Virus record (IMG/VR): IMGVR_UViG_3300025921_000062
Span: 1-28,609 of that record
Strand: one strand, 5' to 3'
Source of the DNA: a virus
Length of the DNA stretch: 28,609 bases
The position numbers were made by a program, and so were the translations under genes. Under the pieces are notes generated by a model. It worked only from the letters and a program-made list of their open reading frames with translations, searched no databases and was not told the origin of the DNA. Positions 21,044 through 24,810 of this stretch are shown piece after piece (the first letter of the stretch is position 1; each line of letters starts with the position of its first letter).

Positions 21044-23362
21044 GTGGCTGTGGCGTACCCATCTGCATTCCTAGACGACCTGCGCGCCCGACTGCCCGTC
21101 TCCGAGGTGGTCGGGCGAACGGTGGAGCTTAAGCGCAAGGGCTCGGAATTTGTCGGGCTTTCGCCGTTCCAGCAGGAGCGCTCGCCCTCGTTTACCGTCA
21201 ACGACAACAAGGCGCTGTGGAAGGATTTTTCCAGCGGCAAGGGCGGCGACATCTTCGCCTTTTGCATGGAAGCGCTCGGCATGGACTTCCCGGCCGCGGT
21301 GGAGGAATGCGCCAAGCTCGCCGGCGTCTCTCTGCCGGGCGAGACGAACGGCGCGAGGCCGCCGGCGCAGTCGAAAAAGTCGACATCACCGAAAGCACAA
21401 AAGCCGGAAGAAGGTCCGCCGGATAACGATCCACCGTTCGATCCAGATGCCTACGACAATTCTGGACGCAGCGAGCCGGGCGGCCCCGTGCAGCGGACCA
21501 AGCGCGAGATCACGCGGACCTATGACTATACCGACCCGGGCGGCGCGCTGATCTATCAGGTGTGCCGGGTCGAGTGGCAGGAGGACGGCAAGCGCAAAAA
21601 GACGTTCATGCAGCGCCGGCCGGGGCCTGATGGCTCATGGATATGGGGGCTGTCCCCGGGCGAGTTTCTCAAGTCCCGCGATGGCGACTGGTATCAGGCC
21701 ACAAAAGAACGAATCGCGAAATGGAAGGGGGCCGAATCAAGAACATTCCCGGTCGGGGCCGAGCACGGGCTCTACCGACTGGTCGAGTTGCGCGAGGCTG
21801 GCGACGATGACGTCGTCTACCTTCCGGAAGGGGAGAAGGACGTCAATACCCTGATCGACGTCATGGGGCTGGTCGCGACCACCAACAGCGGCGGCGCCAA
21901 AAATTGGCGCGCCGACCATGCCGAGTTCTTCCGGGGCCGCGACGTCGTCATCCTCTGCGACAACGACCAGCCGGGCCACGACCGTGCCGATCTGGTCGCA
22001 AACACGCTGCGCGGCATCGCGCGGCGCATCCGCGTCACCGACTTCCTGCCGCTCTGGCCAGAGGCGCCCAAGGGCGCCGACGTCACCGATTGGGTGCGCG
22101 ACCGCGAGGGCAACGCTGGCGAGCTACAGGCCTTCGTCGACACCATCGCCGATTGGAAGCCGGCTCCATTCGAATCGAAGTTTGGCGGCATCCCGTTCGA
22201 AAAGCTCGACGAGCCCGGCGAGGAGCATGAGCACCTGATCGACGGCATCCTGACCGTCGGCGACAAGTCGATCATCGGGGGCGCCTCGCGCTCCGGCAAG
22301 AGCTTCCTTGCGATCGATGCATGCATGTCGATCGCCACGGGCCAAGAGTTCTTCGGCCACAAGGTCATGCGGCCGGGGCTGGCGGTGTATCAGGCCGGCG
22401 AGGGCGGGCGCGGCATCAAAAAGCGTTTCCGCGCATGGCGCCAGTACCATCGCCTCGATCCGGCCGCGCGCATCCCCGTCTACATCCTGCCGGCGCGCAT
22501 CGACATCCACTCGGCCGATGGCGACACCGCCAAGCTGATCGAGGAGTTGCACGGCATCGAGCGCATGTATGGCATGCCCATCGTCGCCTTCTTCATCGAC
22601 ACGCTGGCCAAGGCCTCTGGCGTTGCTGATGAAAATTCAGGGAAGGACATGGGCATCGTCATGGGCAATGTCGACAAGATCAGTGAGGCCTTCCCGCGCA
22701 CGCACGTCTGCTTGGTCCACCACATGAACGCCGGCGGCACCAAGCTTCGTGGCCACACCTCGGTGCATGCCGGCGTGGATCAGGTCATCCTCGTGACGCG
22801 AGATGAGGAAAACCCGCGGCTGCGCACTGCGGTGCTCGACAAGCAAAAGGATGAGGAGGACGGCGCCAAAATCTATTTCGAGCTTCCGCAGATTACGATC
22901 GGCTACCGCGCGATCGACGGCAACCCGATCACCTCCTGCGTGCCGGTGCCAACCGGCACGGACGTAAGCTTCAGGCAATCCGGCAAGCCGAATGTCGAAC
23001 GATCGAAGATGAGCGACACCAACGCGCTGATCTTCCAATCGCTGAAGGACGCCCTCGTCGAGGACGGCATTCCAGCCCCGCCCGCGCTGAAGCTGCCCCG
23101 CGTCATCACTACCGTGGTCCACGTCAAGCACTGGCGCAGCCGGTACAAGGCAGTCGCCTCCGACGTCGACATCACCGACAACGCTGCCAACCAGCAAATG
23201 AAGCGAGCCTCCGAAAAGCTGCTGCGGCTTAAGCTGATTGGAAGGATCAACCCCTATGTTTGGCTGACCGGGCGGGGTTCCTTCACCAAAGCATCCGACA
23301 TTGTCGAGCCGAATGCGGAAGGAGACACGACGCCGGAACAAGGCGAGTTCCCCGAGACGTAA
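21044..23362 (+). CDS. phage primase-helicase fusion (degenerate CHC2 region, Toprim, RecA-like ATPase)
   Basis: This 772-residue replication protein has four parts. Residues about 35-75 match a CHC2 primase zinc finger (G-L-S-P-F-Q-Q-E-R-S-P-S-F, D-F-S-S-G-K-G-G-D), but Ser40, Gln43, Asp61 and Ser64 stand where the zinc ligands should be. About 235-365 form a Toprim-like domain (E262 in P-E-G-E-K-D; D306 in C-D-N-D-Q-P-G-H-D). About 385-640 form a RepA/DnaB-like ATPase, with Walker A G-G-A-S-R-S-G-K-S (Lys419), Walker B F-F-I-D-T (Asp519) and H-H-M-N. The last about 120 residues look like a winged helix. It probably primes and unwinds phage DNA. The start is GTG, with a poor ribosome binding site. 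Confidence 0.87.
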   Translation: MAVAYPSAFLDDLRARLPVSEVVGRTVELKRKGSEFVGLSPFQQERSPSFTVNDNKALWKDFSSGKGGDIFAFCMEALGMDFPAAVEECAKLAGVSLPGETNGARPPAQSKKSTSPKAQKPEEGPPDNDPPFDPDAYDNSGRSEPGGPVQRTKREITRTYDYTDPGGALIYQVCRVEWQEDGKRKKTFMQRRPGPDGSWIWGLSPGEFLKSRDGDWYQATKERIAKWKGAESRTFPVGAEHGLYRLVELREAGDDDVVYLPEGEKDVNTLIDVMGLVATTNSGGAKNWRADHAEFFRGRDVVILCDNDQPGHDRADLVANTLRGIARRIRVTDFLPLWPEAPKGADVTDWVRDREGNAGELQAFVDTIADWKPAPFESKFGGIPFEKLDEPGEEHEHLIDGILTVGDKSIIGGASRSGKSFLAIDACMSIATGQEFFGHKVMRPGLAVYQAGEGGRGIKKRFRAWRQYHRLDPAARIPVYILPARIDIHSADGDTAKLIEELHGIERMYGMPIVAFFIDTLAKASGVADENSGKDMGIVMGNVDKISEAFPRTHVCLVHHMNAGGTKLRGHTSVHAGVDQVILVTRDEENPRLRTAVLDKQKDEEDGAKIYFELPQITIGYRAIDGNPITSCVPVPTGTDVSFRQSGKPNVERSKMSDTNALIFQSLKDALVEDGIPAPPALKLPRVITTVVHVKHWRSRYKAVASDVDITDNAANQQMKRASEKLLRLKLIGRINPYVWLTGRGSFTKASDIVEPNAEGDTTPEQGEFPET

Positions 23363-23513
23363 AAGTGACAGGTCGCGCAAAATGGCCTGTCGCTTTTGGC
23401 GAAGGTGACAAGCCATAGACGTCTTCTAAGTATTTGATACTACTGGTAGACCCAGAAAAAAGTGACAGCTTTTTCGGGCTGTCACTTTTGACCTGTCACT
23501 TTGTCACTTTTTT
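23361..23513. repeat. GTGACA inverted-repeat cluster and bidirectional terminator
   Basis: Between converging operons the motif GTGACA occurs at 23365, 23405 and 23462 (plus) and as TGTCAC at 23480, 23494 and 23502. AAAAGTGACAGG (23361) pairs with CCTGTCGCTTTT (23386-23397) with one G-T pair. AAAAGTGACAGC (23458-23469) pairs perfectly with GCTGTCACTTTT (23478-23489). On the minus strand the latter stem runs into TTTTTT, a good terminator; on the plus strand it ends TTTT. AAAGTGACAGGTC (from 23362) also recurs inverted at 23490-23502, and another half-site ends in six T at 23513. Confidence 0.8.
23419..23431 (+). promoter_or_regulatory. second copy of the intergenic 13-mer (see 10547-10559)
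   Basis: ACGTCTTCTAAGT differs at one base from the element after the tail-tip gene. A small dyad AGTAT-TTG-ATACT (23429-23441) overlaps its right end. Function unknown. Confidence 0.3.
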
Positions 23514-23515
23514 CG

Positions 23516-23845
23516 TCATTCGGCCGCGAAAAGCCGCCGCTTGATCGCGGCGCAAAAGGCGTCCCGAACCTCCCGGCTGGCATCGCGATCGAGCACGTTG
23601 AGCATCCACTCCACATTGCTGGCGACCGGTCCGGTGGGGCCGTCCGGGCTCTTCTCCGCCCGGCGGATCGTATCGGCGCCGTTATTGACCAGCGTCGTGC
23701 CGGCGTCCGGGTGGTTGGACCGATCGGACCGCAGCCGGAAGCCGGTCAGGCCGCAGAGCTTGGCCATCTCGGCATGGGTGAAGGCCCGGCCGATCACGGC
23801 CCGGCCGATGTCGTGTCTGGCGTCGCCCAGTTCTTCGCCGGTCAT
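23516..23845 (-). CDS. phage protein of 109 residues, unknown function
   Basis: This is the last gene of the right-hand minus-strand operon, ending just before the GTGACA terminator cluster. The translation has a helical N-terminal part with F-T-H-A-E-M-A-K-L-C-G-L-T-G, which could be one half of a helix-turn-helix, then a D-G-P-T-G-P-V-A-S-N-V-E-W-M-L segment and a basic C-terminal helix (F-C-A-A-I-K-R-R-L-F). The start overlaps the preceding stop as ATGA. A DNA-binding role is possible; no family is recognised. Confidence 0.7.
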   Translation of the reverse strand: MTGEELGDARHDIGRAVIGRAFTHAEMAKLCGLTGFRLRSDRSNHPDAGTTLVNNGADTIRRAEKSPDGPTGPVASNVEWMLNVLDRDASREVRDAFCAAIKRRLFAAE

Positions 23846-24072
23846 TCGTCTTTGGCCCTCTGGATCGTATCGAGCAGGAAGTGCATGACGCCTCCCGCCT
23901 TGACCGCGTTAGCGAACAAGGCCGGATCGAGCGCCGGGAAGTTGTCGCGGAACGGCATGGTGGATTTTTCCAGCACGGTTGCAGCCGTGATGCATTCCTG
24001 CGCAAGGTCGCGGTAGATCGTCGCCAACTCCCGCGCGGCTTGGTGGAGGTGATGCCTAGTCACGTATGGCAT
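23842..24072 (-). CDS. small helical protein of 76 residues, unknown function
   Basis: The ATG at 24072 has GAGGAG seven bases upstream and lies inside the end of the preceding gene (17-nt overlap). Longer frames upstream read as shadow sequence. The protein is mainly helical (L-H-Q-A-A-R-E-L-A-T-I-Y-R-D-L-A-Q-E), with a short N-F-P-A-L-D-P-A-L-F middle. The stop overlaps the next gene as ATGA. I see no function. Confidence 0.7.
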   Translation of the reverse strand: MPYVTRHHLHQAARELATIYRDLAQECITAATVLEKSTMPFRDNFPALDPALFANAVKAGGVMHFLLDTIQRAKDE

Positions 24073-24394
24073 TTTCGATCTCCTCGTGAGCCACGATCGA
24101 TTTCCAGCGCCGCACAAATTCGGCGAGCCAGAGCCGCTGCGCCGGCGAGAGTGCGGGATCGTCGACATGCTTGTCGGCAGCGCCGAGCTTGAGCCCGTTC
24201 ACAAGGTTGAACGTCTGATACTCGGAAATCAGGATGGCGAAGGTCAGCGCGTTGTCGGCGGCATAGTCGATCGCCTCGGCGAGCGTGTCGAACACCAAGA
24301 GCCCGTCGCCGACTGCGACCATGTCGCCGAAGCTGGTCGGCGCATGGCGAAGCTGATGGCCGGCAATCGCCGGGTATTCCGGAAAGCCGCTCAT
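24056..24394 (-). CDS. phage protein of 112 residues, unknown function
   Basis: The start ATG at 24394 overlaps the previous stop as ATGA, so I discard an upstream in-frame ATG at 24427. The translation has a compact core (F-G-D-M-V-A-V-G-D-G-L-L-V-F-D-T-L-A-E-A-I-D-Y-A) and a second half with L-S-P-A-Q-R-L-W-L-A-E-F-V-R-R-W. It reads like a soluble alpha/beta accessory protein. No motif is recognised. Confidence 0.72.
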   Translation of the reverse strand: MSGFPEYPAIAGHQLRHAPTSFGDMVAVGDGLLVFDTLAEAIDYAADNALTFAILISEYQTFNLVNGLKLGAADKHVDDPALSPAQRLWLAEFVRRWKSIVAHEEIENAIRD

Positions 24395-24810
24395 GGCCGA
24401 AGCTCCGGTGGTGGCGGCTCCGGCCATTGCCAGAGCTTCACGCCGTTGCGATGCGCCTTCGGTCGCATGATCTCGCCGGCATCGATCGCGGCCTCGACGT
24501 CATTCTTGCCGAGATACCATCGGACGTCGGGAATTTGCGACTTCAGCACGTCGACGGTGTCGCCGCGCTCGTCGTAGCCGTAGAGCACGCATGGCCCGGC
24601 GATCAGCCGGTGGCCGATCGAAAAGTAGCTCTGCTCCTCCGCCGGCACGAACAGCCCAAACTCATAGACGACATAGGCGAGCGAGCGGGACAGCGTGCCA
24701 TGGTCGACCGCGTTGGGCTTGAGCCCAGCCATCTCCTCGGCCAGTACAAGCTCCTTCGCATCGACCGTCTCGATGGTGCGCTCCTTCGGTTTGACAATCA
24801 CGAATTTCAA
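24391..24810 (-). CDS. phage protein of 139 residues, unknown function
   Basis: TTG at 24810 is the likely start: it overlaps the previous stop as TTGA and has AAGGAGG eight bases upstream. An in-frame start at 24852 would reach back into the preceding gene. The protein begins beta-like (K-F-V-I-V-K-P-K-E-R-T-I-E-T-V), has a hydrophobic middle (L-A-Y-V-V-Y-E-F-G-L-F-V) and contains W-Y-L-G-K-N-D-V-E-A-A-I-D-A-G-E-I. It ends in a Pro-rich tail (P-E-P-P-P-P-E-L-R-P). No family is recognised. Confidence 0.75.
   Translation of the reverse strand: MKFVIVKPKERTIETVDAKELVLAEEMAGLKPNAVDHGTLSRSLAYVVYEFGLFVPAEEQSYFSIGHRLIAGPCVLYGYDERGDTVDVLKSQIPDVRWYLGKNDVEAAIDAGEIMRPKAHRNGVKLWQWPEPPPPELRP

Follow-up and report, generated by a model that had tools for sequence, protein, structure and literature searches.

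The 153-bp gap that follows the primase–helicase gene of the viral DNA analysed here (a 28,609-bp IMG/VR virus record, hereafter called the window) holds an array of six GTGACA copies, and we consider it very probable that this array is an iteron replication origin lying directly 3' of the gene for its own self-loading initiator helicase. Comparable arrays are found past related helicase genes, and the repeated word varies together with residues of a predicted recognition helix in the helicase.

Repeats downstream of the primase–helicase gene

The primase–helicase gene (21044–23362, plus strand, GTG start) encodes 772 aa and ends in a TAA stop at 23360–23362, while the next gene (23516–23845) lies on the minus strand and hence converges with it. 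Within the gap between them (23363–23515), three GTGACA copies are on the plus strand at 23365–23370 (3 bp past the stop), 23405–23410, and 23462–23467, and three are on the minus strand at 23480–23485, 23494–23499, and 23502–23507; a degenerate copy, also on the minus strand, reads TGTCGC on the plus strand at 23388–23393. Two perfect inverted pairs are formed in the array, one of 12 bp (23458–23469 with 23478–23489) and the other of 13 bp (23362–23374 with 23490–23502). The three direct copies, the three inverted copies, and the perfect 12-bp stem had all been described in a first-pass annotation of this DNA and are real.

No 6-mer exceeded 4 copies when the intergenic stretch was shuffled 20,000 times with its dinucleotides kept, as compared with the 6 observed, and all five occurrences of AAAGTGACA in the window fall inside the array, with 0.07 expected from shuffles. 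The whole intergenic stretch, when folded as DNA, gave a z of −7.6 against shuffles. An unbiased scan of whole loci was also tried as a means of finding arrays and was abandoned, given that chance GC-rich words turned up besides the 3' arrays; in the window, the top 250-bp stretch of that scan was one with seven copies of CGCCGA and not the GTGACA array. Near relatives of the window at the DNA level were not found in the phage collection.

Arrays downstream of related helicases

Homologs of the helicase were collected from viral contigs, phage and plasmid records, genome contigs, and bacterial genomes restricted to a single family and order. Homologs with a core score below 100, without a stop, or without 200 bp downstream were left out, as were the loci L001–L005 and L009–L013 before any counts, and near-duplicate proteins were removed at a 5-mer overlap above 0.6 in the first set (91 loci) and at 0.75 later. 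Of the 91 non-redundant homologs in the first set, 35 had a significant array within 250 bp past the stop, as compared with 1/91 inside the gene and 5/295 after other open reading frames of the same loci. Arrays were present in 56 of 121 homologs of the discovery set (27 of 33 when only the closest cores are taken) and were spread over 30 of 71 core clusters; in the held-out set, arrays were found in 38/65 and 7/9. Whether carried by phages, prophages, or plasmids, the array lies directly past the helicase stop. Exceptions are L072, with its array at +332, and L085, L226, and L234, in which the array is at or before the stop.

In terms of geometry, the 101 arrays of the discovery and held-out sets have a median of 8 copies, the first of which is a median of 5 bp past the helicase stop, and neighbours of the same orientation are 8–13 bp apart in 314 of 472 cases, most often 9. 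Several short words repeated at roughly helical pitch beside an initiator gene are expected of an iteron origin, and this is the pattern found here. Each array uses one short word, and the word differs among relatives: namely, GGGACA, CGGACA, ACAACC, CATACA, GCAACA, and others, with ACA contained in 45 of the 56 discovery words.

No array was found in 54 of the 121 discovery homologs, whose C-terminal domain is nonetheless related by score. The idea that this domain is restricted to array-bearing homologs was accordingly rejected, since the array-negative proteins score too (median 52.6 vs 77.4). We also noticed that the array-negative related helicases have longer C-terminal parts (median 156.5 vs 107.5 residues) and that the L088 cluster is without an array in all seven of its members.

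The closest viral relative over residues 351–771 is L006, which is 69% identical there. AGTGACA was not found in L006; its word is ACAACC, in the same place and order as in the window (+++−−−) and with copy spacings of 52, 58, 18, and 15 bp vs 40, 57, 18, and 14 bp in the window, while a sixth copy, 82 bp further on, is probably there by chance. A core common to the window and L006 sits between the repeat blocks. L011–L013 were considered as relatives through this shared core and rejected because they look unrelated; among the four viral matches, only the L006 contig has the core past a helicase gene. The window's own word is carried by a Bradyrhizobium contig (L007), and the phages 16-3 and RHph_X2_25 have 15–16 copies of CGTGAC/GTGACA past the helicase gene, with 13/17 and 14/17, respectively, of the exact GCGTGACA matches in their genomes lying within the array. 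Plasmid homologs use the words TGCGGAAG (Caenibius) and GCGCAACA (Methylobacterium). As for the convergent gene at 23516–23845, its 109-aa product matched no Pfam or PHROG family and, among 384 loci, occurs only in L006 (on the same contig as L010 and L020), L007, L024/L026, L025, and L027.

Hairpins and transcription termination

Two hairpins can be formed from the words of the window. One, from copies 3 and 4 (23458–23489), is a possible bidirectional terminator with a fold z of −3.9 on the plus and −3.6 on the minus strand; the other, from copy 1 and the degenerate copy (23361–23397), begins in the stop codon and has a fold z of −4.4 and −1.5, respectively. On the plus strand, therefore, both fold as RNA far better than shuffles. 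The strength of the hairpins, the short T runs that accompany them on either strand, and the convergent next gene are what would be expected if the array were a bidirectional intrinsic terminator between converging genes and the extra copies were its remnants. The TTTT runs are inside the stem ends. A simple terminator scan of 22500–24500 (loop of 3–8 and then 5 or more T in 8), on the other hand, gave no match. Among the relatives, furthermore, the next large open reading frame runs in the same direction as the helicase gene in 60 of the 93 arrays for which it could be called (8 of the 101 could not), 5 of the 101 arrays have copies in a single orientation only, many arrays such as those of L014, L008, and L356 have a separate G+C-rich hairpin, and the word covaries with helicase residues as described below. 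We thus regard the terminator as a very unlikely account of the array, and terminator hairpins would be at most a side function of it. The same counts of single-orientation arrays and co-directional frames give no support to nested alternative stems between converging operons as the main point, which is where the first-pass annotation had placed the emphasis. Conservation of the central hairpin alone, with the other copies random, is contradicted by L006 and L007; both have retained the arrangement of several copies, and in L006 this is so despite a change of word.

The separate hairpin (CCCC...GGGG) ends many arrays and is flanked by inverted words; examples past the helicase stop are L014 (3754–4112), L008 (4680–4725), L282, and L356. 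Perhaps this is the real terminator in those arrays.

C-terminal domain of the primase–helicase

The primase–helicase is composed of a CHC2 zinc ribbon (residues 7–99, Pfam E-value 3.4e-22), an AAA_25 helicase core (residues 378–562, 1.7e-27), and a C-terminal domain (residues 647–757; 22982–23314, plus strand) that is predicted to be a DNA-binding winged helix. Among solved structures, the core is closest to RSF1010 RepA (1g8y, E-value 1.4e-12). While no Pfam family scored above its cut-off in the C-terminal domain, two AlphaFold2 models of it (mean pLDDT of 87.0 and 84.1) both have the predicted winged-helix topology H1-S1-H2-H3-S2-S3, and the structural neighbours of the predicted domain are winged helices, with ORC1 as the best (Z of 9.6) and CRP at about 8. 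Foldseek gave E-values for this domain that were weak and not below 0.001; with the core and the C-terminus together, RepA/RecA-fold proteins were among the best 50 matches listed. Helix 3, the putative recognition helix according to the model secondary structure and the covariation with the word, comprises residues 712–728 (codons at 23177–23227, plus strand), including N716 and Q717 (23189–23194) and R721 (23204–23206). Residues 716, 717, and 721 are presumably spaced like R180, E181, and R185 of CRP.

Across the relatives, the constant unit consists of the helicase core, the C-terminal domain, and the array, whereas the N-terminal part varies: CHC2 in the window, a DnaB N-terminal domain in L006, and Prim-Pol in phage 16-3, with a toprim-like part in L207 that is below the cut-off. 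The same core and C-terminal domain are present with three N-terminal fusions in L006 (2398–4242), L014 (1586–3754), and the window (21044–23362).

Covariation of the word with helix 3

Among pairs with cores at least 75% identical, C-terminal identity was 0.586 for the same word (30 pairs) and 0.415 for different words (71 pairs), and the observed excess was reached in 0 of 2,000 permutations that took in every pair. L196 departs from this pattern; its word is GGGACA, yet it shares no more than about 30% identity in the C-terminal domain with its GGGACA sisters. When the columns of the domain were ranked by mutual information with the bases of the word, residue 716 came first and residue 717 third and fourth, both in helix 3, while residue 631, outside helix 3, came second.

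In the discovery set, K717 went with GGA in 26 of 30 proteins and Q717 with GTGA in 7 of 7. This rule was written down before the held-out search, in which K717 went with GGA in 10/10 and Q717 with GTGA in 2/2; because some held-out loci fall in clades already present in the discovery set, these are new proteins and not new lineages throughout. Held-out proteins without K717 had GGA in 2 of 16 cases (Fisher, 1.2e-5), and those with neither K nor Q at this position in 2 of 14, one of them having the chemically similar R. Arrays that were not alignable at residue 717 (3/56 in the discovery and 19/45 in the held-out set) were dropped from these counts. Within clades of similar cores, the rule agreed with 56 of 61 cases, as compared with 39.1 in shuffles, and none of 10,000 shuffles reached this agreement. 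L048 and L051, with cores 98% identical, have K with GGGACA and Q with GTGACA, respectively. K717 was found without GGA in 4 of 40 proteins (L006, L023, L030, and L091); three of these four belong to the window's own clade, in which the rule therefore holds in 5/8.

At residue 721, R was present in 34 of 34 proteins with K or R at 717 and GGAC in the word. Exceptions were D (L096, CGGGAG), N (L282, CGGGAA), and Q (L356, CGGGAT), at one locus each, and the words of L096 are mixed (six CGGGAG and three CGGGAA); these assignments are single after-the-fact observations, because another held-out search, aimed at residue 721 and preceded by a written prediction, gave R721 cases only. In the table of R721 against ACA (43, 5, 2, and 5), the gapped L120 and L185 were counted as without R, L041 (GGGTAC) as without ACA, and L006 (ACAACC) as with ACA, while L016 was not aligned. 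In several held-out loci (L322, L325, L330, L326, L339, L349, and others), the words are ATCACA, ATCGCA, CTACGA, and the like, and the C-terminal domain of the helicase is difficult to align with helix 3; these helicases possibly represent a second type of reader.

Taken as a sequence pattern, the covariation suggests that the C-terminal domain of the helicase would determine the word. We give about even chances to a more general reading, in which a large group of tailed phages, prophages, and plasmids owe their origin words to a natural recognition code that can be rewritten, with residues 717 (K, Q, A, V, M, and others) and 721 (R, D, N, and Q) selecting bases directly and additively (K–G and Q–T/A; R–C/G, D–G/C, N–A, and Q–T/A). 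Were this code true, all 5–15 iterons would switch together with their reader, even between cores that are 98% identical, and the words would define replication-specificity groups among phages in a manner similar to plasmid incompatibility. Independently of such a code, the arrays provide a natural series of a rare kind, in which a single winged helix has switched repeatedly along with all of its 5–15 target sites, and a joint change in the specificity of initiator and origin becomes directly testable by single residue swaps.

Spacer and proposed initiation

The spacer between the iteron blocks of the window contains a perfect match, TATCAAATACTTA (23427–23439, minus strand), to WATCAANNNNTTR, which we take to be the IHF consensus. 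It is the only such match in the window and falls in the core shared with L006. Perfect matches are present in 14 of the 101 arrays (87 are without), as compared with 0.9 expected from shuffles (maximum of 5), and in 0 of the 54 array-negative homologs. The repeat blocks are 40–100 bp apart in many arrays, and the spacer of the window is 63% AT vs 38% in the gene. As a hallmark of the arrays in general, an AT-rich spacer is weak: the spacer has more AT than the gene in 24 of 31 arrays, but its excess over the entire array is slight (0.497 vs 0.484).

We propose that the primase–helicase would bind the GTGACA iterons through its C-terminal winged helix, with helix 3 in the major groove, residue 717 reading the second base of GTG-ACA or GGG-ACA, and residue 721 reading the C of ACA. 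Several bound subunits, together with bending of the DNA at the IHF-like site in the AT-richer spacer, may melt the DNA, onto which the RepA-type helicase ring would be loaded so that replication starts; the inverted copies could form hairpins and possibly end transcription as a side effect. That the array exceeds what one terminator needs and is a candidate site for protein binding or replication had been suggested in the first-pass annotation, and this is supported by its conservation 3' of the helicase family, the covariation of the word with the recognition helix, and the recurrence of copies at 8–13 bp. An origin and its initiator are predicted in this way, from sequence alone, for many phages, prophages, and plasmids, among them the classical Rhizobium phage 16-3.

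Binding by the winged helix could also serve autoregulation or tethering of the helicase, with the true origin elsewhere, and the covariation, which points to binding, is by itself no proof of initiation. The array is, on the other hand, at the 3' end of the gene and not at its promoter, and arrays at this place in SaPI, PICI, and SCCmec are origins or bind the initiator helicase (sources below); we hence consider this possibility to be unlikely. An operator array for another protein, such as the product of 23516–23845 or a phage repressor, would fit with the conservation of that gene in L006, L007, L024, L025, and L027. The gene is nonetheless found in only 8 match rows of the 384 loci, all in the window's clade, as opposed to arrays in 30 of 71 clusters, and the word follows helix 3 of the helicase, leaving the operator highly improbable. 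Iteron arrays also act as plasmid centromeres, and the array might be a partition, packaging, or recombination site that happens to adjoin the helicase gene. Given that phages, prophages, and plasmids alike have the array directly past the stop of the helicase gene, and that the word covaries with the helicase itself, this is the least probable of the readings. An iteron origin read by the helicase is the interpretation we favour.

Comparison with known replication systems

In the open-licence literature, we found no publication on these arrays or on a code between word and residues. Several systems are nonetheless similar in part. In satellite phage P4 (alpha, ori, and crr), a single protein combines primase, helicase, and winged-helix origin binding, as here, but the helicase is of the SF3 type and ori and crr are placed otherwise. 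Rep of SaPI and PICI is a AAA+/SF3-type helicase, a type to which the present AAA_25 core does not belong, and the helicase class of SCCmec Cch2 is also different from AAA_25.

In terms of layout, SaPI and PICI are close to the window. According to PMC6092414 and PMC7581432, their origin lies immediately 3' of the initiator helicase gene and consists of short iterons, grouped in sets on the two sides of an AT-rich region, and the C-terminal domain of SaPI Rep reads the iterons directly downstream of its gene (PMC7581432). The window and its relatives likewise have iterons immediately 3' of an initiator helicase gene; the helicase core is, however, of the RecA-fold AAA_25/RSF1010 RepA type, and it is also carried by ordinary tailed phages, by prophages, and by plasmids, unlike the SaPI/PICI islands of S. 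aureus and Gram-negative bacteria. Because the helicase has the RecA fold, we have not classified the array system with the PICI-type Rep. In SCCmec, as far as PMC7581432 describes it in the available part, the C-terminal domain of Cch2 binds direct repeats (iteron AAGTG) directly 3' of the gene and requires the direct but not inverted ones; there are three iterons, and that part reports no variation of the word.

The nearest solved core, RSF1010 RepA, belongs to an IncQ system in which initiation involves three separate polypeptides, RepA, RepB', and RepC, according to PMC4234260, whereas the primase and helicase parts are fused here. A plasmid-like oriV (PMC2647930) was set aside as a precedent since it lies upstream of a gene and thus has another layout. 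The crenarchaeal plasmid pRN1, as described in PMC4234260, resembles the window in having its origin directly 3' of a primase–helicase–winged-helix gene, with a dispensable terminator beside it, but differs in that this origin is a large stem-loop without iterons and the helicase is of the SF3 type. If the array is indeed an origin, the origin layout of SaPI and PICI would be extended to an unrelated helicase fold.
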